Shown in pieces: positions 273 to 41,550 of a stretch of 42,218 bases of DNA. Source of the DNA: a virus; IMG/VR virus record IMGVR_UViG_3300035698_002090, positions 1 to 42,218 of that record; one strand, 5' to 3'. Made by a program: the position numbers and the translations under genes. Under the pieces are notes generated by a model that was not told the DNA's origin, did no database searches, and saw nothing but the letters and a program-made list of their open reading frames with translations. Numbering within the stretch: the first letter of the stretch is position 1; each line of letters starts with the position of its first letter.

Positions 273-1229
273 TTAGGATTGGCCAGTAACTACGCCAAGG
301 AACCTACGGTTCGATGTGGCGAGTTCTAACCCGACGAGGAACTGAGCTGTTTTTGCATCTTGATCGGGAGGACGCACAAAGTCATTATAAATGAAGTTGC
401 GATTCTCGTTGACATAGAGATGAAGAACGTCACTATCCAAGAAATAAGAATAGCCAGAGGTACATTGGTCGTCGAAACGAACCTTTGCTCCAGCAAATTC
501 CAAGTCCCGGAATTTAGAATCAGCAGTGTTCAAGCTCTGATAACGAATTTGTGGGGCCATAGTAGCCTCGTAAGCTTCGTGCACTGTTTGAGTAGTGAGG
601 ATCATATCTGGATTAGCACCCTTATTCTTCTGGGTATTATACAGATTTCTCCAGTCAGCAACACCTTCAGCAGCGAAAACTCCGCCTGCTTTAACTTCTG
701 CTTGCCAATAAGACTTGGAAGTAGAGTTAATGTCACCAATAGTTGAAGTAGCATTAACCAACGTGTACAAAGACTGAATCTCCTTAGTAGTGTTGGTGGT
801 TCCATACAACTTTTGGTTGATGACATTTCTAAGCGAACGTTCTGCGTTCTTCTGCTTCATCATTAGCAGATTCATAAGAGCAGATTCCCCACGATTCTGG
901 ATGTCTGCCTCTCGGCCACTGATACTAACTGATGCGTATGCTTGCTTCCAATCATACTGAGCTGCAGTATGGTTGTCTTGGGCAGTCACATCTAGAAGGT
1001 CATAACCGTCATAAAATTTGGCAGTTGAGTTTGAATCAACTTCCAAGGGAACAACGATAGACGCTCCGCCGTCCAACATCACTCTACCTTTTGAATTAAG
1101 ATACTCAAAAGTAGGAATGGCGTTAAAGACAGCATCTGCAACTTCTTGTTTAGGTCTTTTTTCGAGGGTTGACGCTAATAACTGACCTACGTTATCCGGT
1201 CCCCATGTGTGAATTATATCTAAAGACAT
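273..1229 (-). CDS. Major capsid (coat) protein
   Basis: This 318-residue protein follows the scaffold gene and is followed by small head genes, the standard place of a coat gene. It begins with a long helical N-terminus, then beta-rich segments, with a central basic helix around residues 120-140. The lack of cysteine-rich or enzymatic motifs and the length of about 320 residues suit an HK97-fold coat of the kind made together with a separate scaffold. The fold is inferred from position and composition, not from a diagnostic motif. The start ATG at 1229 is preceded by AAGGAGTAA, which is also the 3' arm of a strong hairpin, so translation may be controlled by RNA structure. Confidence 0.85.
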   Translation of the reverse strand: MSLDIIHTWGPDNVGQLLASTLEKRPKQEVADAVFNAIPTFEYLNSKGRVMLDGGASIVVPLEVDSNSTAKFYDGYDLLDVTAQDNHTAAQYDWKQAYASVSISGREADIQNRGESALMNLLMMKQKNAERSLRNVINQKLYGTTNTTKEIQSLYTLVNATSTIGDINSTSKSYWQAEVKAGGVFAAEGVADWRNLYNTQKNKGANPDMILTTQTVHEAYEATMAPQIRYQSLNTADSKFRDLEFAGAKVRFDDQCTSGYSYFLDSDVLHLYVNENRNFIYNDFVRPPDQDAKTAQFLVGLELATSNRRFLGVVTGQS

Positions 1230-2456: not shown

Positions 2457-2806
2457 TATCTGTTCTCCCACTGTTTAGATGCTATTTTATCAAAGTTCCT
2501 TGATCCGTGAATCTTGTCTCCTGCTTCCTGTAACTTCAGTTTCTGCATAATAGCTGCCTTCTCTCTTTTACTTGAAAAAGGTATAGGGCCAGTATATCTA
2601 TCGCACAGATTTGGATCTGTCTGATTAGATCCTTTTGACTCATCAAAATACACATCAGGAGATAAATTAGGAGTGCCGGTAGTAGAGCACTCACTACATG
2701 ATTCCTCTTTTAAATCGTCTCCTTGAGACTGTGGAATGTATCTAAGTCTCCAATAGTGCCAATTAGTTGCTCCGCAGTTTCTGCATGGGTCTTTAGTCGT
2801 TATCAT
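2456..2806 (-). CDS. Zinc-binding protein of unknown function, next to portal
   Basis: 116 residues. The N-terminal third has CRNC at 8-11 and CSEC at 37-40, two CxxC pairs that would form a zinc ribbon. The rest is polar and ends in a basic helix. The start overlaps the end of the portal gene by 14 bases, so translation is probably coupled. Its place between portal and scaffold suggests an assembly function. Family not recognised. Confidence 0.65.
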   Translation of the reverse strand: MITTKDPCRNCGATNWHYWRLRYIPQSQGDDLKEESCSECSTTGTPNLSPDVYFDESKGSNQTDPNLCDRYTGPIPFSSKREKAAIMQKLKLQEAGDKIHGSRNFDKIASKQWENR

Positions 2807-4679
2807 TGTCCATTACCCTCGAATTGATTTCTGCTAACTGCCCCTGAATATCTTTTATAGTCTTCATTAAGTCTATTTGGAAATCATTGTCGACTTTTTG
2901 CCTATCTACTGCCACACTTTCGCTGTCGTTGTTGATCTCTTGCGCTCTCATATTTAACTCAGCACCCTGAGCAGCAGCTTGTATCTGCTGTGCTTCCTGC
3001 TGTGACTTTTGTTGTGCTTCAGACTGTTTTGCTAAGAATTGTTTCTCTGCATCTAGGGCTCTTGTTAACTCGTGCAATCCTGCTTCGTCTACAATCATCG
3101 CACCGATAGCAGCAAGGAACGGACCAGGATTTTGATTCTTAATGCCAATATACGTAGTAGCTATATCTTTAAGCAAACCTATCTTCGTCTCCCTATCTAA
3201 AGGAATGGCAGTCCCTCGTTTAATTCTAACATCCGTCGGCCCTGCGATATCGTCTGAGGTAACAGAGAATCCGTAAGGTGTGTTTGTGGCTCCTGGTTTC
3301 GTAGCAGAAGGTCTTGCTGCGAGCATCTGTGCCACTTCTTCAGGAGGGAAACCAGTTAGTTGTACATAGAATGGCTCTGTTGCAAACTGCTCCAAAAGAG
3401 CACTGAGTTTCTCCGCAGCTTCTTCAACAATGTCTTGAATAACATTCTGTTGTTCTACGAGCCTATTAGTAGTGCCTGCTCCCTGTTTCTGGAGCTCAAA
3501 CTTAGTCCGTGTCTGCGTTCTGGCTTGTCCTGCTCTATCTGGAGGTCTTTGGCCCCAGATCTGAGATAAATCATCATCGAGTCTACTTTCTAGGCCAAAT
3601 ACATCGGGCTGAAAAGGAGCGTATGGTATTGGCTTGACTGCGCTTGGGTCTTCAGCTTCTAATAAAGCCGAATCATCGCCTCGCTCATAGGCATCCTTTG
3701 CTTCTGCTGTAAAGTTATCTGGCTTGGTTAATAGTTGCCTTGTGCCTCTCTTTAAATGCTCTAAGAAATTAGTACGTATCTTTGTCTTTTCTAAAACAAT
3801 AGATTCTCCCATCCCAACGTCCGAAATCCCGTACGCTTGGTCATTCACAAAGCTGAGGTTAAGGAACAGAAATGGGAAATTCTGTATCTTATCGTAAGGC
3901 CACTCTCTAGTATCTACTATACCAACATTTTTCTGTTTAGAAACAATAAGTACCTTTCTATTAGATTTATCCCACACTTCATACAGTTCGGCGTACTCAA
4001 CATCTCCTGCATCGGTACTTGCTGAGTTTCTCTTGTTAGTCATCTCTTTCTTTTCGTTACCTGAAAGTCTGATACCAACTAACTTGCCTGCTCCTTTATA
4101 TTGTTTTTTAACATCTTCTAATGGAGCAAAGAATTTCTGCGCTATCCAAGTAGCATCGTAAGGCGGATCAACTGCTTCTGCATTAAACAGTATGTGTCTC
4201 CAATTTACCCGATAAAAAAAGTAATCTTCATTCTCTGAGTTAAATTCAGTAGTTTCGGATTCTTCTAGGTTGCCTAAATTGGCATTATATCCCACTTTAA
4301 ACCACGCATGCCCTACAATCAATCCGTCCTGCACACCCTTCTTAACTTCCCTCTTAAATTTCTTTCTGTGCCAAATATCATTGACTGCAATCTCTTTTAA
4401 CTTGGCAGATTCTATTTTAGTCTCTTTTTTAGGCGTAAATTCAAAATAAGGATCTTGTAAGTAAAGATCAGGGGTCTTAGATCGAACAAAAGAATATATC
4501 AAATTTAAAGGTAACACTCGTGGACTATTGGCAAGGGTATCGGAGTAGTTTCCTCTATATTCCCTAATATAGCGTTCCCAGTGATTCTCTCCTGCAGTAT
4601 CTTCTAGGAATTTTTCTCTTCCTTCAATTCTACTGATCCAATTACCACTATCATCGTTTTGTTTGTTTTTATTTACCAT
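2793..4679 (-). CDS. Portal protein
   Basis: At 628 residues this is the right size for a podovirus portal, and it sits directly after the terminase nuclease gene (7-base overlap) and before scaffold and coat. The middle (about 240-390) carries the aromatic, acidic and proline pattern of portal stem and clip regions, including a long helix near 290-320. The C-terminal 100 residues are a Gln/Glu/Ala-rich helix with coiled-coil character. It should form the 12-fold ring at one capsid vertex through which DNA enters and leaves and on which the adaptor is built. The assignment rests on size, position and overall pattern. Confidence 0.85.
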   Translation of the reverse strand: MVNKNKQNDDSGNWISRIEGREKFLEDTAGENHWERYIREYRGNYSDTLANSPRVLPLNLIYSFVRSKTPDLYLQDPYFEFTPKKETKIESAKLKEIAVNDIWHRKKFKREVKKGVQDGLIVGHAWFKVGYNANLGNLEESETTEFNSENEDYFFYRVNWRHILFNAEAVDPPYDATWIAQKFFAPLEDVKKQYKGAGKLVGIRLSGNEKKEMTNKRNSASTDAGDVEYAELYEVWDKSNRKVLIVSKQKNVGIVDTREWPYDKIQNFPFLFLNLSFVNDQAYGISDVGMGESIVLEKTKIRTNFLEHLKRGTRQLLTKPDNFTAEAKDAYERGDDSALLEAEDPSAVKPIPYAPFQPDVFGLESRLDDDLSQIWGQRPPDRAGQARTQTRTKFELQKQGAGTTNRLVEQQNVIQDIVEEAAEKLSALLEQFATEPFYVQLTGFPPEEVAQMLAARPSATKPGATNTPYGFSVTSDDIAGPTDVRIKRGTAIPLDRETKIGLLKDIATTYIGIKNQNPGPFLAAIGAMIVDEAGLHELTRALDAEKQFLAKQSEAQQKSQQEAQQIQAAAQGAELNMRAQEINNDSESVAVDRQKVDNDFQIDLMKTIKDIQGQLAEINSRVMDNDND

Positions 4680-5551
4680 TTTGGCTGCCTTAAAGTTATC
4701 TTAGATTTATTTTGCTTATATTCTTTAAATAATTCTTCTTCTGCTGTTTTACTGCCGGATTTGTTACCCTTTCGTAGTTCATCCCACCAGTCTACTGAGT
4801 ATTTCACTAAGTTCTTCTTTATTATAACAGTAGTTCCCTTCCAGTAACTTATCTGGGCTTGCAGAGCATCTATCAGATCATCATGTCTATTTCTAGGAAA
4901 CTCTCTAAGCTGCTGCTCTAATTCCGTAAGACCGTTCTTGTGAAATATCTGTCCTCTAGCATAGTATGGTATTAACCGCCGAATTTTGACAGGTTTGGTC
5001 ATCTTTGTTCCTGGGTTGTATTCATCTAGTTTAAAATGAACATCTCTTTTTTTCATTTCATACCTAAACAGATCAATCCAAAGGATTTGAGCAGACACTG
5101 TCTCGATTGTAACAACTTCAGGGCTGTATATCATAACTAAGTCAAAAATCTGGTCTACGAGCTTATTTGGTAATAATTTCTTCGCTATAGTCTGAATGAC
5201 ATAAATACCCCCATCTGGGTCTATCTTCGTTACCACTATACCAGAGGGGTCGTTCTCTTGCTTATCCTTAGTGGCAGGATCGATGCTTATAATACACTTC
5301 GCACCTCTTAGTTTCTCGTTAACGTCCTCGAACTTGAAATGCTGAAACCATTCATCTTTAAATTCAACTAAATCGTCAGAAACAGGGTTATTATAGTAAT
5401 TTCCAGAATAAAGATACGGCCCTAACTCAGCTTCTACCTCATCAAGAGCTTTCTTTCCTTCGCCACCTTTTTCTGAAGCTGTGTAGCAAAAGTCTTCTGG
5501 GAAGATTAGCTTCCCTTTCTCTTCTACAGCTCTAATATAGGCATCAAACAT
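4673..5551 (-). CDS. terL: Large terminase, nuclease half (split gene)
   Basis: 292 residues with the RNase H-like nuclease domain of phage large terminases. Visible acidic catalytic positions are D91 in SIDPA, E150 in VVTIE, and D225/D228 in HDDLIDAL. The N-terminal segment (KLIFPEDF, then GPYLYSGNYYNNP) matches the linker that normally follows the ATPase domain in a single-chain terminase. Here the ATPase domain lies in a separate gene 860 bases upstream (6411-7169), with three small genes between. The ATG overlaps the stop of the preceding gene (TAATG). The halves probably work as two polypeptides cutting and translocating DNA at the portal. A splicing solution looks unlikely because the gap is filled with packed genes. 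Confidence 0.9.
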   Translation of the reverse strand: MFDAYIRAVEEKGKLIFPEDFCYTASEKGGEGKKALDEVEAELGPYLYSGNYYNNPVSDDLVEFKDEWFQHFKFEDVNEKLRGAKCIISIDPATKDKQENDPSGIVVTKIDPDGGIYVIQTIAKKLLPNKLVDQIFDLVMIYSPEVVTIETVSAQILWIDLFRYEMKKRDVHFKLDEYNPGTKMTKPVKIRRLIPYYARGQIFHKNGLTELEQQLREFPRNRHDDLIDALQAQISYWKGTTVIIKKNLVKYSVDWWDELRKGNKSGSKTAEEELFKEYKQNKSKITLRQPKW

Positions 5552-5931
5552 TAAGGTATAGTAATCTCGTCAGAAAATGACGAGTACTCTCCGGCTGTTG
5601 CGTCTGCCAATCTATATCTCATCCTAAACTTAATGGTGTTTGTCGAATCTACAGGAGGGTTATCAACTATCCACTGAGATAGGGTTCCTATGTTATCTGT
5701 GGCTGGATTAAAAGCCAGACTGATAGTAACAACAGAAGCCCCATTTCTGTATACGTTTAAATCCATAAAGTCGGCATCAGCATAGTTTGATACGCCTATA
5801 TGAGTCCAGTTATACGTAAAGTCCCCAGCATCGTAGGTAACTACTCCAACGATAGGTGGGTCGAGCAATTTAACAGTATCTGCAGCATTATCCGCAAAAC
5901 CAGCGGTAATTAAGAATCGCTTTACGTCCAT
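5551..5931 (-). CDS. Beta-rich protein inserted within the split terminase
   Basis: 126 residues with no cysteine and no membrane segment, a Thr/Asn/Val/Tyr-rich composition and alternating hydrophobic residues that suggest a small beta-sandwich (fibronectin-III or Ig-like). The C-terminal half has an RMRYRLAD strand followed by YSSFSD, typical of such folds. Both ends overlap neighbours by the TAATG pattern, so it is tightly coupled. It resembles virion decoration proteins more than an enzyme, and it is not an intein or homing endonuclease. Function unknown. Confidence 0.7.
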   Translation of the reverse strand: MDVKRFLITAGFADNAADTVKLLDPPIVGVVTYDAGDFTYNWTHIGVSNYADADFMDLNVYRNGASVVTISLAFNPATDNIGTLSQWIVDNPPVDSTNTIKFRMRYRLADATAGEYSSFSDEITIP

Positions 5932-6224
5932 TAGCTACTTTCTTGTTCATAGATTGCAGTAACATAGGTCGTATTTGCATCTACATCTATAAACAGACCG
6001 CCAGGGAACTGCAGTCCTCCAGGATAGTTGACACGAACAGAAACACTAATTGTTCCGTTTATCTCATCATATTCAGTACCGCTAGTCGAAGTTCCGTTAC
6101 GTACTACTACAACTGCTGCTGTTTCGCCTGAATGAACAATAAGACCGTACAACCTAATCTTTTTACCCGATGTTCCTATAGCCCCATCGTCTGTAACTTG
6201 TTGTGAACCAATCGATAATGACAT
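5931..6224 (-). CDS. Small beta-rich protein inserted within the split terminase
   Basis: 97 residues, rich in Gly, Ser, Thr and Val, with alternating hydrophobic patterns (AAVVVVRNGT, TISVSVRV) and a Gly-Pro loop (PGGLQFPGGLF). This pattern matches small phage head-decoration or tail-accessory proteins with a beta-sandwich. The ATG at 6224 follows a GGAGAC-type ribosome site and lies one base from the stop of the 57-residue gene upstream. Family not recognised. Confidence 0.7.
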   Translation of the reverse strand: MSLSIGSQQVTDDGAIGTSGKKIRLYGLIVHSGETAAVVVVRNGTSTSGTEYDEINGTISVSVRVNYPGGLQFPGGLFIDVDANTTYVTAIYEQESS

Positions 6225-6398
6225 TTAAAGTCTCCTATATGTTATTTCGTCCATAACTAGAACGTGTATATTATCTGTTAAAGTGTCGATAAATGCACGG
6301 TACCAAGTTTCTTCGGGATCTCTCGGTACTGTGTTGATGGCTTCAACCACCATTTCTCTTATTCTTTCTCTTATTTCAGCTTCTGTTCTATGTTTCAT
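6225..6398 (-). CDS. 57-residue helical protein inserted within the split terminase
   Basis: The ATG at 6398 has an AGGAGAC ribosome site 5 bases upstream. The frame ends in TAA just before the next start. The product is charged and probably two-helical (EAEIRERIREMVVEAI, then WYRAFIDTL). It is the first of three genes that separate the two terminase halves. No family recognised. Confidence 0.65.
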   Translation of the reverse strand: MKHRTEAEIRERIREMVVEAINTVPRDPEETWYRAFIDTLTDNIHVLVMDEITYRRL

Positions 6399-6410
6399 TT
6401 GTCTCCTGCG

Positions 6411-7169
6411 CTAGAAACTAACGTATTTGTACCACTCAGTTCCTTGTCCCTTTGCTATCTGCGTACCGTTAATTGAAGTAACTGACGTATCCAACACATG
6501 CCCATACAAGTCTTGTGATGCCCAACGGGTACCTATGTCTACAATAGTTCCGCCTTTATCTATCTGGTTAAAACAATCCCTGTGGAAGTTGATAACTTTC
6601 TCGATCTGATCTTTAGTTCGGACGTTACCAGGTTCCACAAGGTCGTCATTGATAATCAAGTCAAAATGTTTACCATTAAGAATCGAGTCAATGGAGGCTG
6701 CCATTACTGTGGGTTGGGCTCGTGCAAGGCTTCTTTGAGCGATTGTAAATGAGTCCCTATTCCAAGCGAGTTTTGGCGACCTAAATTTGCCGTAAATCTG
6801 TTCTAGCTTACTTCCTGTATCAAAAAACGATTGTATTGTAGTTACGAACTCTCTGGCTGTATCGTATTTAGCGTTATTGATACAAATCCGCATATTTGGG
6901 TTATTAAGGATCTGCTGAATAGACCAAACAACTGTAATAACCGTACTCTTTAAGTGGTTACGTGGGATAAGAATCATCTTACGAGGACCACTGTGCTTCA
7001 TATAATAAGCAAGTCCTGGAGGAGTATTGGTTTCAGGATCTCCTGGGTAATCTCCATGAAGCTTATCATTCCATCTATCGTACCCACAAATCTCTTTGTA
7101 TAAGAACTCTAAGTTAGTCTCACACTTCTTTTGTATCTTAAATACCTCAGAATCTCGGTTATCGGCCAT
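6411..7169 (-). CDS. terL: Large terminase, ATPase half (split gene)
   Basis: 252 residues containing the packaging ATPase. The deviant Walker A loop is PRNHLKST at 69-76, the Walker B segment is FDLIINDD at 169-176, and IGTRW at 212-216 matches the coupling motif that follows. The protein stops right after GTEWYKYVSF, where other terminases continue into the linker and nuclease domain. Those parts are encoded at 4673-5551. It overlaps the small terminase gene by 11 bases. The half should drive ATP-powered translocation at the portal, in complex with the separate nuclease half. Confidence 0.9.
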   Translation of the reverse strand: MADNRDSEVFKIQKKCETNLEFLYKEICGYDRWNDKLHGDYPGDPETNTPPGLAYYMKHSGPRKMILIPRNHLKSTVITVVWSIQQILNNPNMRICINNAKYDTAREFVTTIQSFFDTGSKLEQIYGKFRSPKLAWNRDSFTIAQRSLARAQPTVMAASIDSILNGKHFDLIINDDLVEPGNVRTKDQIEKVINFHRDCFNQIDKGGTIVDIGTRWASQDLYGHVLDTSVTSINGTQIAKGQGTEWYKYVSF

Positions 7170-7545
7170 ACTGACCTAACCTACCTGACAAGTCCTCAAT
7201 CGTTTGGTTCTTTTCTTTGATTTTAAGCTGTTTTAGCTCGTTATTCAATTGTATTGATCTATTCTCTATTTTATCACAAAGGAGCACTTCTTCTCTAAAT
7301 TTGTCGTCTACTGCGACAGCATCATAGAATGATTGTATCTGAATACCGACACTCTTAGCAATTTGGTTGTAATTGTTACAGACACGCAGCCTATCAATAA
7401 AAGTCTTACGCATCTCAGCCGTGAATCCTTTGCGTCCTACGGGCTCCAGATAGCCTGTGACGGGATCTTTTACAAGCCTCGTACCCTTTAAGGTCTTACG
7501 ATAGCGGAACCGGTTAGAAATCCATATTTGATCGAATTTACTCAT
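7159..7545 (-). CDS. terS: Small terminase subunit
   Basis: 128 residues directly before the terminase ATPase gene. The middle reads as a helix-turn-helix (RVCNNYNQIAKSVGIQIQSFYDAV, about residues 51-75), followed by a long charged helix that would oligomerise. This is the layout of phage small terminases, which recognise the packaging site and stimulate the large subunit. An overlap of 11 bases with the next gene suggests coupling. The ribosome site is GGAGAG. Confidence 0.8.
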   Translation of the reverse strand: MSKFDQIWISNRFRYRKTLKGTRLVKDPVTGYLEPVGRKGFTAEMRKTFIDRLRVCNNYNQIAKSVGIQIQSFYDAVAVDDKFREEVLLCDKIENRSIQLNNELKQLKIKEKNQTIEDLSGRLGQYGR

Positions 7546-20802: not shown

Positions 20803-21635
20803 ATGGAAAAGAAGAGAAAATTATAAGAACAGAGATAAAGGCTACTTGTGCTGCCGTGGCTGGCTTTAACAATCGGCTAAGAGGAATTATATCTCTGTGG
20901 AGGTGCTGTGATTCTGTCGAAAAAGAGTGTGGCATAAGACCCAAGTTCTCCATCACATGGCCTATTACTGATATCTGCACAGGAAAGTATGAAGATGTTC
21001 TCCTAAATGAAATCAGCATCCGTGAAAGTGATCAAACTGTCTGTACTACTAAATCTGACATTTGTTGGCGACTTACTGTTTACGAAAGTGAGGTTCCCTC
21101 AGATTTTGCAAAAGCCTGGCCTTATCATGGAAGTATGCGCCCTAGCATTGAATTTGAATATGAGCGTATACCACAAAAAGTAAGAGATTTATTTTTACCC
21201 TATTTTAATAAACTCCAATTTCATCCTAGCATCCTTAAGAAAGCAGGAGAGACTAAACCTCTCCCTGGCAGTATCGGTGTATATTGTAGAGAGGCAGCTG
21301 ATTGGACAGCGCACTCTAGATCTTTGGGACTGCAGAAGTACTTTGACGCTATTGATGTATACGCCCCAGCAAATCCGATATACCTTTCAGCTCACACAGA
21401 AGAAATAGCAAAACAATTTATCGAACGGTATGGATCAAGAATACAGGTACAGCCAAACAAAGACTACAGTTCAAAGACAGGTCGACAGCTACAACACGCT
21501 ATTGTAGATATGAAAGTTATGTCTGATCTTCCAATGTATATCGGCGATGGGTTAAGTTCTTTCTTAGAGGACATATGGTGGCTCGGAGGATGTAAAGCAA
21601 AGGTAATTCGTTTAAGTAACCAGGAGAATATATGA
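20799..21635 (+). CDS. Fucosyltransferase-like (NodZ/GT23-type) glycosyltransferase
   Basis: 278 residues. The N-terminus has GFNNRLRGIISLWRCC...FSITWPITDICTGKYEDVL, the GxxNRLR helix and first strand of NodZ and O-fucosyltransferase-type enzymes that use GDP-sugars. The second half has IGVYCR (a Tyr-Cys version of the usual HxR), a Asp-containing YLSAHTEE strand, and GDGLSSFLEDIW near the end, matching the SxxS loop of that fold. ATGA overlap with the PLP enzyme gene that follows suggests a joint deoxysugar function. The acceptor is unknown: host surface glycan or a phage structure. Confidence 0.7.
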   Translation: MNGKEEKIIRTEIKATCAAVAGFNNRLRGIISLWRCCDSVEKECGIRPKFSITWPITDICTGKYEDVLLNEISIRESDQTVCTTKSDICWRLTVYESEVPSDFAKAWPYHGSMRPSIEFEYERIPQKVRDLFLPYFNKLQFHPSILKKAGETKPLPGSIGVYCREAADWTAHSRSLGLQKYFDAIDVYAPANPIYLSAHTEEIAKQFIERYGSRIQVQPNKDYSSKTGRQLQHAIVDMKVMSDLPMYIGDGLSSFLEDIWWLGGCKAKVIRLSNQENI

Positions 21636-22846
21636 TAGATTTTGCAGGGTGTGATTTTGGAGATGCGGAGCGTAAAGCAGTAAACAGAGTGATGGAAGGG
21701 ACTTGGTTAGCATCTGGAAAAGAGAATGAGGCTTTTGAAAAAGAGTTCGCACTACACATGGGTGTTAAACACGCAATAGCAGTAAATAGTGGTAGTTCAG
21801 CTAACCTTCTTGCTATGGCATCTCTGGACTTGTCAAAGGGATCTGAGGTTATTACGTCAGGATGTGGGTTTCCAGCGACTTTAACACCGATACTACACTG
21901 TGGATTAAAACCTGTCTTAGTAGATTATGATCTTACTACCCACAATATTGATTTAGATCAAGTAGAAGATATGATGGGGAATGGGTGCATAACAGCTATA
22001 ATCTTAGCTCACACGCTTGGAAATCCTGTGGATATGCCTCGTTTAATGAAAGTAGCTAAGTCCTATGGCGTTCAGGTTATCGAGGATTGCTGCGAGGCGG
22101 TGGGATCGATGTACTATGACGATACAGCAGCATTTACATTCAATGGAAGGCCGTACAAGTCAATGGGTAGTTTTGGGGATATTGGAACGTACAGCTTCTA
22201 CCCATCGCATCAAATGACAGCACTAGGTACCGGAGGTATGGTAGTTACTTCAGATGATGACTTAGCCTTAAAGCTCAGATCATTACGGGATTGGGGTAAG
22301 GTCTGTGATTGGGACTCATACCTCGGAGATCACAAGACTAGATATAATTTTGATGGTTACTTTAAACAATATACGTACGAGACAGTAGGGTATAATATGA
22401 AGTTATCTGAGTCAGCCGCAGCCTTTGGTAGGGTTCAATTAAAGAAGTTAATTCAATGGGGTTGTGTACGAAGATACAACCATCTTTTACTAACAGAAGC
22501 ACTGAGCGATTTACAGAACGTATTCGTATCAGTGGAGAAACTGCCAGACGCTATTCCCAGTTGGTTTGGGTACGTACTGACATTCAAAGATAGATCTTAT
22601 AGTCGGAATGATTTCTCAGACTATCTTGAGAGCAAAGGAATCAGGACTAGACCGTTTTTTGCTGGTAACATCACTAGACATAAGCCATTTAAGGAGTACG
22701 AGCAGGATTTTCCAGTGGCTGATAAATTAATGAGAGATTCACTATTCGTAGGTGTTTGGCAGGGAATTACTACAGATCAATTAAAATACATGTCGGATGT
22801 AATCCACAGGTATTTTAAAGAAAAACCGAGAAAAGGAGATAAATAA
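21632..22846 (+). CDS. PLP-dependent sugar 3-dehydrase-like enzyme (DegT family, RfbH/ColD-type)
   Basis: 404 residues of the DegT/DnrJ/EryC1/StrS fold: NSGSSANL (52-59) binds the PLP phosphate, and EDCCEAVGS (151-159) supplies the Asp of the fold. In the loop where aminotransferases have the PLP lysine, this protein has SFYPSHQMT with His at 193. The same Lys-to-His change marks RfbH (CDP-4-keto-6-deoxyglucose-3-dehydrase) and ColD, which remove the C3 hydroxyl of a 4-keto-6-deoxysugar. I therefore read it as a 3-dehydrase, not an aminotransferase. It overlaps the fucosyltransferase-like gene (ATGA). The first steps to the 4-keto sugar would come from the host. Confidence 0.8.
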   Translation: MIDFAGCDFGDAERKAVNRVMEGTWLASGKENEAFEKEFALHMGVKHAIAVNSGSSANLLAMASLDLSKGSEVITSGCGFPATLTPILHCGLKPVLVDYDLTTHNIDLDQVEDMMGNGCITAIILAHTLGNPVDMPRLMKVAKSYGVQVIEDCCEAVGSMYYDDTAAFTFNGRPYKSMGSFGDIGTYSFYPSHQMTALGTGGMVVTSDDDLALKLRSLRDWGKVCDWDSYLGDHKTRYNFDGYFKQYTYETVGYNMKLSESAAAFGRVQLKKLIQWGCVRRYNHLLLTEALSDLQNVFVSVEKLPDAIPSWFGYVLTFKDRSYSRNDFSDYLESKGIRTRPFFAGNITRHKPFKEYEQDFPVADKLMRDSLFVGVWQGITTDQLKYMSDVIHRYFKEKPRKGDK

Positions 22847-25934: not shown

Positions 25935-26062
25935 CTGATACAGTATTAGAAGCAGTATGGTGTGTAGACTCAGAAACTGGACAGGAAGTTTTAATCGATT
26001 TAGCAACTGGAAAGATAATTGCACATAAAATTAATGGGGAGATACAAGATGAGGATAAGTAG
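25931..26062 (+). CDS. Small protein, unknown (43 aa)
   Basis: ATGA overlap with the protease gene. The product is acidic and may form a beta hairpin (VWCVDSETGQEVLIDLATGKIIA). It overlaps the endolysin start by 14 bases. Confidence 0.5.
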   Translation: MTDTVLEAVWCVDSETGQEVLIDLATGKIIAHKINGEIQDEDK

Positions 26063-26519
26063 AAATTTTACACTAGAAGAGCTCACAAAGAGTACTACAG
26101 CAGCTCGACATGGAATTAAGAATATGCCAGATGCCAAACAGTTAGAAAGCCTAAAACTATTGACAGAGAAGGTTTTGCAACCATTAAGAGAAAAGCTAGG
26201 ATTGCCAATAAGAATCAATAGTGGCTTTAGATCTAACAAGTTAAACAAATTGGTAGGCGGATCTACCAAATCTCAACATTCTAAAGGTGAAGCAGCTGAC
26301 ATGGAAGTTATTGGAGTTGATAACAAGAAGTTAGCTGAATGGATTAGAGAGAACATGGAGTTTGATCAGCTAATCTTGGAGTTTTACGATGCAGCTGCTA
26401 ATGATCCTAACTCAGGATGGGTACACGTATCATACAGTGATAAAAAACTCAGAGAGCAGGTTCTTACTGCTAAGAGGATTAGAGGCAAGACAGTATACTT
26501 AAAAGGATTGGTGACATGA
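26049..26519 (+). CDS. Endolysin, M15-type peptidase
   Basis: 156 residues from the ATG at 26049 with a GGGGAGA ribosome site. An in-frame start at 26019 is within the previous gene. Pattern of the M15 peptidase family 3: FTLEELTKS at the start, INSGFRSNKLN, then SQHSKGEAADM with H77 and D84, and WVHVSYS with H126, the zinc ligands. It would cut the peptide side of peptidoglycan (D-Ala or L-Ala-D-Glu bond). No signal peptide, so release through the holin is expected. Confidence 0.85.
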   Translation: MRISRNFTLEELTKSTTAARHGIKNMPDAKQLESLKLLTEKVLQPLREKLGLPIRINSGFRSNKLNKLVGGSTKSQHSKGEAADMEVIGVDNKKLAEWIRENMEFDQLILEFYDAAANDPNSGWVHVSYSDKKLREQVLTAKRIRGKTVYLKGLVT

Positions 26520-38386: not shown

Positions 38387-38977
38387 TTATTTTGAGGCTT
38401 GTCTAGCTGCTCTAGCTTTAGCCATTCTCTCTTTGGCTGCTACTTTCTTTGCTGCTTCGTATTCCTCAACGGCCTGTTTCTTGATAGCTTCGATATTAAC
38501 ATCTGCAGGCTTTATTAAAGAGGCAGTAGTACTACCAGCATCCGTTTCATCAACGGAGGGAGAGAGAGCTGATAGCACTACCCTCGGCACATCCGACAGT
38601 GCCAAAGCACTTGATCTTAAGTCACTAGGATCAATACAATTTGGTTTTGGTTTTGGGACAGTTTTGTTACTTGGGTAATTTGCACTAATGTAGCGTTCAA
38701 TAGTGGCGTATCTTTCTTGAGCATTGATATTCTGCATATTGAACACCAAACCACCGTCTCCGGTCTGGCTTAACTTAATTTCCTCGTGTAGCGTAGGAAT
38801 TTTGTCTTTGTCTGCATCTGATACCCAGTGCTGACTTCCATTCTCTCCAGCAATTTTCTTTGGGTGTTCCATTTTATAGAAGAGTTCTTCTGGGATATTG
38901 TCAATAAACAACACACGATCATTAGATCCTCCCCTCACTATTTTCAATAACACATTACTAATTAATTTAGACATCAT
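38387..38977 (-). CDS. Virion-region protein of unknown function (196 aa)
   Basis: N-terminal segment of 70 residues with a compact fold (SNDRVLFIDNIPEELFYKMEHPKKIAG), then a polar and Pro-rich middle, then a long Ala/Lys/Glu helix (150-196) ending ARAARQASK. The architecture suggests an assembly or capsid-binding protein. ATGATG start overlaps the previous gene. The long basic helix could bind DNA or the capsid. Not recognised. Confidence 0.6.
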   Translation of the reverse strand: MMSKLISNVLLKIVRGGSNDRVLFIDNIPEELFYKMEHPKKIAGENGSQHWVSDADKDKIPTLHEEIKLSQTGDGGLVFNMQNINAQERYATIERYISANYPSNKTVPKPKPNCIDPSDLRSSALALSDVPRVVLSALSPSVDETDAGSTTASLIKPADVNIEAIKKQAVEEYEAAKKVAAKERMAKARAARQASK

Positions 38978-39698
38978 TTTCTCCCTTTGTAATTATTTCA
39001 TCGATATCTACTTTTTGATCTTCGTGATTTTTGAGAAAGTCTTTTTTTGTAATAACTGGCTTATCTCCCAAATGCCCTAGATCAATAGTAGGTTCTGCCC
39101 ATAAGTCGTACCCTAATTCTTTGGCGTTAACAAAGAAATAGAAGTCTTCGGAACATACTCCAGGCAGTGTTTTAAACCATGGTCTATCCATGGCCTCAAA
39201 TACTGACCTGTGGGCTAAAAAACAACCCCCTCCTGCTGCGTGAACCTTGAACGGTTCTTTCTTATTTGGATTTGGAAAACAAAAAGCACCGACGTACTTG
39301 TTAATTTCTGCCTTCTTAGTCCCTTCCCCTGACACTCTTCCTGATTTTAACTGATCTCCTCTACTCCACAGCACAGGAAAATTTAAGTTCTTTCTTTGAT
39401 AGTACACGCCAGTAACTAATTTAGTCTTCTTTTCTTTCGCCACTTTAAACAATTTAACTAGAGTATCTTTTGGAAAGGTCATGTCTGAATCCATCCAAAA
39501 TATCCACTCTGTATCGGTACCTAAGAACGACTCTGTCAAGTTATTTCTGGCATTATCTATGATTTCTCTGTGGGTTATTCCTATGTCTGCTACTTGTATA
39601 TCTCTTGTACTAGAGTAGGCGATAACTGACATCATACTCTGTACTACAATAGGATCTACTGCTTCTGCTATAGGAACTGCTACAGCTACCTTATACAT
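38967..39698 (-). CDS. GT-A glycosyltransferase (family 2-like)
   Basis: 243 residues. IFWMDSDMTFP has the DxD metal/nucleotide-sugar site (D70-S-D72), preceded by DNARNNLTESFL. AAGGGCFLAHRSVFE and SEDFYFF (120-190) match acceptor-side motifs of GT-A enzymes, and IDLGHLGD ends the catalytic part. It lies in a glycan island within the virion operon. A sugar may be added to capsid, tail or host surface. Confidence 0.8.
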   Translation of the reverse strand: MYKVAVAVPIAEAVDPIVVQSMMSVIAYSSTRDIQVADIGITHREIIDNARNNLTESFLGTDTEWIFWMDSDMTFPKDTLVKLFKVAKEKKTKLVTGVYYQRKNLNFPVLWSRGDQLKSGRVSGEGTKKAEINKYVGAFCFPNPNKKEPFKVHAAGGGCFLAHRSVFEAMDRPWFKTLPGVCSEDFYFFVNAKELGYDLWAEPTIDLGHLGDKPVITKKDFLKNHEDQKVDIDEIITKGENDV

Positions 39699-39843
39699 AT
39701 CGTGCTAACCAGTTGAAGAAGAGTCTAGTTGGCGTTTCCATGACTCCTCTGAATCTGATTCCTCCACACCTACATCCTTGGAAGTGTCCACTAGATACCT
39801 CAGCTTTTGTATATACTCTCCAACAATCAACACATTTATACAT
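39691..39843 (-). CDS. Small zinc-ribbon protein (50 aa)
   Basis: ATG at 39843 with AAGGGAGAA upstream. CVDC and CRC near 4-7 and 24-26 would hold zinc. It ends inside the start of the glycosyltransferase gene (ATG/TAA overlap), so it is a real member of the island. Confidence 0.6.
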   Translation of the reverse strand: MYKCVDCWRVYTKAEVSSGHFQGCRCGGIRFRGVMETPTRLFFNWLARYV

Positions 39844-39845
39844 AT

Positions 39846-40538
39846 CTATTCTCCCTTTGTAAATATGAATACTGTTTCTGATATAACATTTCTTAGGTGG
39901 TCAGCACAGAAGGATACCCACCAATGTGGGGCAAAGAATATCCACCACTTTAATATGGGTCTTGACTTAGTTTCTGTCATATCCAATCTGGCAACATGGG
40001 TCAGCTTATCGCATTCTACTGCGGCACTCAGGTTCGTCCCAGATCGGACATTTCTTTTTATTCCTGTAAATGACGCTATCCCTATCAAATTGATATGATC
40101 TCTGTAAGTAAATGCACTATCACTTGATACTGGAGGAATCCAAATCTCTAACCTCCCTCCTGGCTTCAAAACTCTGGCCAACTCTTTAAAACATGCAAAC
40201 CAGTTAGGTATATGCTCCATGACATGGTTTGCTATGATAAAATCAAAATGGTCATTTTCAAATGGCAGGTAGTTTTCTTCGCACTTACCCAAATCAACCA
40301 CTAGGTCTACCCCGTCTCCGCTAACACAGTCAAGATTAACTACATTTGGAGTTGCAAATACGCACTTACCACAACCTAGATTAAGTACTGTCCTTCCTTC
40401 AAAGGTAGACTTTGGTCTATACTTAATATATGTTTCTGACGGCACGAATCCTTTATATAAAGTAAGACCCGACTTTTTCCAGTACTTCCAACTCCCGTAA
40501 CTATCTCGTAATACTCTTAAGTAGTTCATTCCAAGCAT
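39846..40538 (-). CDS. SAM-dependent methyltransferase, class I
   Basis: 230 residues. TVLNLGCGKCVFATPNVVNLD is motif I with the SAM-binding glycine loop, DFIIANHVMEHIPNWFACFKELARVLKPGGRLEIWIPP is the motif II-III helix and strand of the type-11 methyltransferase fold. Phages and O-antigen loci use such enzymes to methylate sugars. It overlaps the GT-B gene by 38 bases and precedes the zinc-ribbon and GT-A genes. Substrate unknown. Confidence 0.8.
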   Translation of the reverse strand: MLGMNYLRVLRDSYGSWKYWKKSGLTLYKGFVPSETYIKYRPKSTFEGRTVLNLGCGKCVFATPNVVNLDCVSGDGVDLVVDLGKCEENYLPFENDHFDFIIANHVMEHIPNWFACFKELARVLKPGGRLEIWIPPVSSDSAFTYRDHINLIGIASFTGIKRNVRSGTNLSAAVECDKLTHVARLDMTETKSRPILKWWIFFAPHWWVSFCADHLRNVISETVFIFTKGE

Positions 40539-41550
40539 TTCCTATTCCCTCCCAGGTAGGAACACCTTTCGGTGTCTCTGTTGATATTTTTCTGTGCAAT
40601 TCTTTCTCTGTTCCTAATCTACAGGCCTGTCTAGCGAATTCCACCGTCCAAGAATGAATGTCGTGTGGGTGGAACTTAGTAGTTAGAAGTCCTGTCTTCT
40701 CATGCTCTATAAACTCTGGGTTAGCTCCCACGTTACTAGAGACTATCGGTAATCCGCAAGCCCTCGCTTGTAGTAAGATGTTACTGCAGATCTCAGGATA
40801 CGAATTAGGCATCAATAAGCACCACGCTTTCTTCATAACAGCAGCTAGGTTTGTCTGAACCATAGGTGCGTATACATGCACACCGTTCTTAGACATCTCT
40901 TTTAAAAATTTTTGCTGTGCCTCTGTGTTGTTAAAACCATGCAGCTTTTGGCTGCTGTATATACGAAAGTCTATTGACGGAAAGTTACGCTTTAAGCTCA
41001 TATAAGTAATGTCTAATGGCATATACCCTTTAATCATAGCAGAGCAAGTTAAGTATAAATTAGGGTCTCTCTTCTCATAATCTCCTGGGTTAAACACACC
41101 ACTGTCTATTCCATTAGATATCACTTCAAACTTGTCTTTTGGTATCTCATAAAAATCACTAAAAGTATCTTTACAATAGTCAGACAGAGCTACAATCTTA
41201 TCTACCATCTTAAATGTATCGTCAGGAAGATATCTTGGGTCCACTATATCATGTAACCACCAAACTATCTTAGATCCATTATTCTTACAGTACGTGACAA
41301 AATCATTAGGCAGTACGTTTCTGTTGAATACCGTTACATCCCATTTAGGAGCAGAGCCATCTGGCTTTAGGTAATGTACTCCGTTGACTATCTCATCTTT
41401 CTCATAAGTGCTTTTAACGTACACTTCGTGTCCCTGAGCAGCAAGAAATTCAGGGACTTTCGTTAAAGATGTCAGAGTTCCACCTGTTGGCTTCTCATAC
41501 AACTTATGTGGGTTATGTCCTTTCGTGTGGTCTACAAATAATATTTTCAT
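40501..41550 (-). CDS. GT-B glycosyltransferase (family 4-like)
   Basis: 349 residues. Rossmann start KILFVDHTKGHN with glycine loop GGTLTSLTKVPEFLAAQGHEV, and the C-terminal EICSNILLQARACGLPIVSSNVGANPEFI with the E-x7-(A)-type nucleotide-sugar motif of GT4 enzymes. Retaining transferase in a glycan island between head genes and tail genes. Ribosome site GGGAGAG. Confidence 0.85.
   Translation of the reverse strand: MKILFVDHTKGHNPHKLYEKPTGGTLTSLTKVPEFLAAQGHEVYVKSTYEKDEIVNGVHYLKPDGSAPKWDVTVFNRNVLPNDFVTYCKNNGSKIVWWLHDIVDPRYLPDDTFKMVDKIVALSDYCKDTFSDFYEIPKDKFEVISNGIDSGVFNPGDYEKRDPNLYLTCSAMIKGYMPLDITYMSLKRNFPSIDFRIYSSQKLHGFNNTEAQQKFLKEMSKNGVHVYAPMVQTNLAAVMKKAWCLLMPNSYPEICSNILLQARACGLPIVSSNVGANPEFIEHEKTGLLTTKFHPHDIHSWTVEFARQACRLGTEKELHRKISTETPKGVPTWEGIGNAWNELLKSITR

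Follow-up and report, generated by a model that had tools for sequence, protein, structure and literature searches.

Why should a phage divide its large terminase (TerL; gene terL) between two genes, and could the two products still make one packaging motor? The question is raised by a single virus record of 42,218 bp (IMGVR_UViG_3300035698_002090; this whole stretch is called the window), in which the terL region lies on the minus strand and the ATPase and nuclease motifs stand in separate open reading frames (ORFs). The original prediction, made from the letters of this stretch, was that three inserted genes had split the terminase into an ATPase gene and a nuclease gene, giving a two-chain motor with, possibly, a dedicated linker. 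Here, we propose, at a probability of roughly 0.8, that gene fission yielded a two-chain packaging motor whose co-translated chains assemble non-covalently, and that genes are exchanged in the interval separating the two halves. A two-chain motor is therefore still the best reading, the split being conserved and no intron or intein joining the halves, with assembly as its conjectural step. The fission is better supported and more general than was first seen, its cause and cut site differ from those predicted, and the result is a known machine in variant form, not a machine of a new kind.

That the two genes together encode one large terminase is borne out by motifs, profiles and predicted structures. 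The ATPase half holds conserved motifs of a P-loop ATPase (PRNHLKST, Walker A-like, at residues 69-76; IINDD at 172-176; GTRW at 213-216), and the second chain has the acidic set of an RNase H-like nuclease (D91, E150, D225 and D228), the first two residues being invariant and the last two nearly invariant in 17 aligned sequences; both sets lie in the genes to which they had been assigned. The halves match phrog_38 consecutively (ATPase half at profile positions 305-463, E 2.7e-27; nuclease half at 483-721, E 7e-38), and the nuclease half passes the Terminase_6C cutoff. Joined, they come to 544 residues against ~480-530 in intact relatives, a normal-length terminase as predicted. A profile of the ATPase half matches T7 gp19 in the PDB (4bij, E 2.7e-9) and also PhiV-1 TerL; the nuclease profile matched no terminase there by sequence, and the joined profile aligns with T7 gp19 from end to end (hhalign 99%). 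In its AlphaFold2 model, chain 1 is predicted to be a compact, self-standing fold (predicted local distance difference test score, pLDDT, 92.5; predicted template modelling score, pTM, 0.91). The chain 2 model matches TerL structures by Foldseek, the best being full-length PhiV-1 TerL (8dgc), with the nucleases of T4, RB49, G20c, Sf6 and human cytomegalovirus also among the matches. Of the sequence features that define a TerL, only the placement of ATPase and nuclease on one polypeptide is missing, here and in 19 relatives. A search of both strands of the window found no second copy of either half.

Where, then, does the cut lie? Intact relatives (all relatives carry locus numbers beginning with L) read in one frame from the GTRW-helix through a strand-like segment to a lid helix with a QYxNxP motif and on to the nuclease. 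The strand-like segment is DFDVFLRSATDEKGKVIFP in L070, NYSTFIKQAVDKSGKLLMPE in L038 and SFDVMVRQAF in L036, and in the fused TerL of L070 the residues LLKNQ continue directly into DFDVFLRSATDEKGKVIFP, the unsplit counterpart of the break. Chain 2 of the window begins with MFDAYIRAVEEKGKLIFPE, which aligns with this segment, just past the ATPase core of intact TerLs. Because the segment precedes the lid, chain 2 would carry lid, hinge and nuclease. In the first eight loci to be measured, chain 1 runs on for 40-41 residues past the G of GTR; the start of chain 2 falls at one common alignment position across loci, just ahead of an xDxxIR-type motif. The alignments thus place the cut between ATPase core and lid, inside the motor domain and not between the two known domains, and the description of the pair as separate ATPase and nuclease genes has to be redrawn. 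On T4 gp17 the cut would fall near residue 307, by a weak match (3%, E 0.015); in T4, NsubI has been described as the engine and NsubII as the transmission, with a hinge (PMC9958956). Chain 1 closes with a 25-residue tail (SING...W), common to the split clade and absent from the nearest intact relatives. A segment of similar length stands at this position in intact TerLs of Zobellviridae (ICP2, CVT22), which partly weakens the tail as a split-specific feature. The tail was also considered as the missing core strand and rejected, the model giving a hairpin and helix instead, with confidence falling there.

The same split was found in 19 further distinct contigs, as the original prediction had proposed to look for in related phages. 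Relatives came from scans of IMG/VR and of one-genome-per-species contigs, followed by a wider profile scan; the searches were seeded with split sequences, and their yield carries no information on the frequency of fission among phages at large. The first scans gave L001 (72% identical to the window in the ATPase half, 57% in the nuclease half), L010, L011, L012, L020, L026 (a 42,179-bp contig in a Saprospiraceae metagenome-assembled genome, MAG) and L033/L034, and the wider scan added L059-L069 and L073. With the window, these are 20 distinct sequences whose breaks match within a few residues (L060 is counted although its contig end truncates the nuclease). Chance is excluded, since different contigs from other studies show the same arrangement. 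Both halves are under strong purifying selection where divergence is measurable, the ratio of nonsynonymous to synonymous substitution (dN/dS) being 0.08 in the ATPase half and 0.10 in the nuclease half in pairs with unsaturated dS.

In a mixture-model tree of 32 sequences (19 split loci with enough sequence, the fused L070 and 12 other intact relatives), the split loci and L070 form one group with support of 100/98, apart from the other intact relatives. Both parts are thus conserved and co-inherited, as in a split protein of the fission type. L070 (IMGVR_UViG_3300024520_000644, fused TerL at 1257-2855), which by profile score is the nearest of the fused sequences (A8 5e-80, A7 3e-102), is nested inside the split clade, with L065 outside it (95/96). 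Its neighbours, as in the window, include members of the window's 97-residue family, here in two copies upstream of terL; unlike the window, it has a continuous frame, no tail and no gap. A second split clade of five loci (L099, L115, L116, L118, L119) shares the break point and is placed with the intact L048/L148. Its gaps measure 0.3-2 kb, three of them with a related beta-rich gene of ~110 residues and three with a related gene of ~260 residues. A common origin of the two split clades is rejected only modestly (approximately unbiased test, p-AU 0.034), and the second split probably arose independently. In a further locus, L090 (1576-3133), the ATPase and nuclease frames overlap and the frame changes close to this break point, which could be either a fission or a sequencing error.

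If the genes are separate, how might their products be kept in step? In most members a stop-start contact precedes the nuclease start, whatever gene stands before it; the exceptions are L059 (a 22-nt gap), L020 (ACG in place of a start) and L060 and L069 (near contacts). As the contact recurs with different upstream genes, it points to coupled translation, the two proteins being made in step by termination-reinitiation. At position 2556, L020 reads TAATACG where its relatives read ATG or GTG, which may be a rare start codon or an error.

The gap itself varies widely, from 124 bp in L012 and 125 bp in L020 through 541 bp in L001 and 859 bp in the window to 2,142 bp in L063, 2,565 bp in L069 and 2,573 bp in L010. 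In four relatives (L062, L064, L068, L073) there is no gap and no gene between the halves, which abut or overlap (TAATG or ATGA), the frames overlapping by 1 to ~24 nt. Fission therefore does not need the inserts, which change from clade to clade with none common to all members, and the claim that three inserted genes split the terminase falls. Besides the two copies in L070, the window's 97-residue protein has one in the L010 gap, at 57% identity. Its 126-residue protein has a weak relative in the L010 gap (E 0.04). The 57-residue family is found in the L010 gap and also upstream of the ATPase gene in L063, L064, L066, L067 and L068. With five such positions outside the gap and no universal insert, the 57-residue gene was ruled out as a dedicated linker; helical genes of 60-70 residues in the gaps of L026, L033, L059 and L061 show only a suggestive link to it (hhalign E 0.0023, probability 13%). 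Downstream of its portal, in the structural region, L001 has a gene with 63% identity to the 668-residue gene that L069 carries in the gap; a 98-residue family, also inserted in relatives, is located in the same region. Given passenger homologues outside terL and changing gap content, the gap appears to be a site where neighbouring genes move in and out. From their position and beta-rich sequence only, it is a fair guess that the inserts are virion parts. This earlier suggestion remains plausible but indirect: the two insert families just named lie in the L001 structural region, while the L010 gap also holds a Peptidase_M15 lysis-type gene, a relative of the M15 gene that the window keeps elsewhere (see the table). 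Most inserts have no family match, and comparison of the 97- and 126-residue proteins with phage records found nothing.

Could the halves be rejoined after all, in RNA or in protein? A self-splicing intron with genes inside would do so in RNA, and group I introns do fragment terL in Jug phages, where introns average ~206 nt (PMC12363816), and in Bastillevirinae (PMC11878797). Yet the four zero-gap relatives leave no place for one, the gaps of 124-125 bp are too short for a group I core, and in the window gap no homing endonuclease is seen among what are tightly packed stop-start coding genes. Rfam searches of the window gap and of those split loci that were scanned, at a permissive threshold, found no group I or II intron, matches at E<0.5 being chance-like small nucleolar RNA (snoRNA) models only, and splicing is extremely unlikely. 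Ligation after translation by a split intein is of negligible probability, even though inteins are common in TerL (PMC5050341) and the split TerL of phage ctLwi270 contains one: only ~25 residues follow the last core helix of chain 1, chain 2 opens with TerL-homologous sequence, and, as the alignments show the junction free of any additional domain, neither an N- nor a C-intein fits. Judging from these sequences, introns and inteins can be excluded for the zero-gap and 124-bp members and appear unsupported elsewhere, in line with the earlier view that neither joins the halves. A sub-threshold Rfam match to the yeast snoRNA snR40 (window 5542-5629, minus strand; 28.7 bits against 50 needed) is taken as chance.

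A non-functional terL, broken by gene decay or misassembly, would be no surprise in draft contigs, where frame breaks are common and where the frame change of L090 at a similar spot could be an error; but the same break in 20 distinct loci from many studies, dN/dS of ~0.1 in both halves, retained catalytic residues and the lack of a second TerL in the window make this highly improbable. We give equally little credence to a fused protein made at low level by programmed frameshifting or readthrough, with the separate chains as by-products. The short frame overlaps of the zero-gap members would allow it, whereas it is impossible over 0.1-2.6 kb and several genes (window, L001, L010, L063, L066, L069), no slippery site is shown, and in most members chain 2 begins at a start codon of its own. 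Somewhat less improbable, though still unlikely, is that the chains work independently and not as one reassembled TerL: chain 1 would be a packaging ATPase that needs no nuclease joined to it, and chain 2 an enzyme of its own for cutting genome ends. Motors of the phi29 type work without a functional nuclease. Stand-alone T4 domains, too, retain ATPase or nuclease activity, but without the hinge they lose DNA translocation (PMC9958956); moreover, the lid that closes the ATPase cleft sits on chain 2, and coupling keeps the chains genomically linked.

Our preferred reading, a fission with reassembly, would run as follows. The large terminase gene of the lineage has undergone fission, leaving chain 1 as the ATPase core (engine) and chain 2 as lid, hinge and nuclease (transmission and cutting/translocating arm). 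A single message would yield both chains, with termination-reinitiation giving chain 2, and non-covalent docking at the core/lid interface, for which the chain-1 tail specific to the clade may serve, would make them a working TerL. In the gap, small virion-type and lysis genes would come and go, the three of the window being passengers. Loose T4 domains need the hinge for pumping and the cut spares it; on this basis we infer a working motor made up of both chains.

Several points weigh against this reading. The members come from metagenomic contigs and, in one case, from a MAG contig, read as sequence alone. The core/lid placement depends on alignment, with a strong match to T7 gp19 and a weak one to T4, and the assignment of the last core strand to one chain or the other carries an uncertainty of ~10 residues. 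The chain 2 model is only fair (pLDDT 78, pTM 0.64). Finally, although L070 is nested inside the clade, a tree constrained to a single split clade is not rejected (p-AU 0.32), and with this value we rejected L070 as proof of re-fusion; L070 may show the ancestral state or a re-fusion, and fission may have occurred once, with re-fusion in L070, or more than once. More tentatively, the motor ring could be built of two exchangeable chains, an ATPase-core ring with a non-covalently docked lid-hinge-nuclease arm, perhaps in unequal numbers or with an exchange of the arm between the phases of cutting and pumping, and the core/lid junction could be a recurrent, tolerated fission point in tailed-phage terminases. 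The docking interface would then be the presumed site at which ATP hydrolysis is converted into movement.

How does this arrangement compare with known terminases? Single-chain TerLs of phrog_38/Terminase_6C (T7 gp19, PhiV-1 and intact L036, L038, L076 and L107) share the core motifs, lid motif, nuclease triad, gene-set order and downstream portal; they are one polypeptide where the split clade has two, and the split clade adds the chain-1 tail and a longer lid segment. Phage ctLwi270 (L004, MW202554; 3923-6460) also has TerL in two genes, with a 62-residue gene between and the portal downstream, but its break comes after the lid, at the ATPase/nuclease boundary, and its chain 1 contains a 235-residue intein-like segment (residues 278-512). 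The terL genes of Jug phages and Bastillevirinae are likewise fragmented in DNA but rejoined by RNA splicing (PMC12363816, PMC11878797), and here there is no intron. In the open-access literature we found intron-fragmented terL and no description of fission of the core/lid type. The TerL of KPP25, considered as a half-length case, proved intact. Several half-length BFVD matches of the ATPase model (among them A0A0A1IX66, 288 residues; A0A8S5UAG9, 300; A0A516LPN5, 286) may be split TerLs, intron exons or fragments.

A natural TerL cut elsewhere than the separated T4 domains, with an intact hinge and its lid in trans, would be a tool for asking which covalent links the motor needs, and the same split lets the transfer of movement between core and lid be studied. 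It is also a warning for annotation: terL is a marker gene, and half-length matches in metagenomes are easily dropped as fragments or miscounted.

Features of the window discussed here, with the role or evidence for each
Feature	Coordinates	Strand	Role or evidence
TerL chain 1 (252 aa)	6411..7169	-	predicted ATPase core (subdomain I): Walker A-like, Walker B/DD, GTRW coupling motif and C-terminal tail
TerL chain 2 (292 aa)	4673..5551	-	predicted lid subdomain, hinge and RNase H-like nuclease; phrog_38, Terminase_6C, Foldseek
TAATG stop-start overlap of chain 2 and preceding gene	5551..5555	-	sequence
Passenger gene, 57 aa, helical protein	6225..6398	-	homologues located in relatives
Passenger gene, 97 aa, beta-rich protein	5931..6224	-	homologues in L010, L070
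Passenger gene, 126 aa	5551..5931	-	weak fibronectin-III-like match, below cutoff
128-aa gene directly upstream of ATPase half, small-terminase position	7159..7545	-	candidate by position only
Portal protein (P22-like), directly downstream of chain 2	2793..4679	-	phrog_156 1.3e-13, PF16510 9.6e-13
Major head protein, beyond portal	273-1229		phrog_9953
Peptidase_M15 gene, probable endolysin	26019-26519	+	PF08291, E 2.6e-24

The ORF coordinates of the original prediction stand, all on the minus strand, and the order of transcription is the 128-residue gene, the ATPase half, the 57-, 97- and 126-residue genes, the nuclease half and the portal. Of the tight TAATG overlaps claimed for the gap, those at the two later junctions (97/126 and 126/nuclease) are true, whereas the 57- and 97-residue genes merely abut (TAA, then ATG); 12 nt separate the ATPase stop from the ATG of the 57-residue gene. 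PHROG and Pfam-type profile searches gave no family match for the 128-residue gene. Elsewhere in the window, an aminotransferase gene (phrog_3139; 21632-22846, plus strand) lies amid replication genes, and glycosyltransferase- and methyltransferase-like genes (38967-41550, minus strand) are located past the tail genes.

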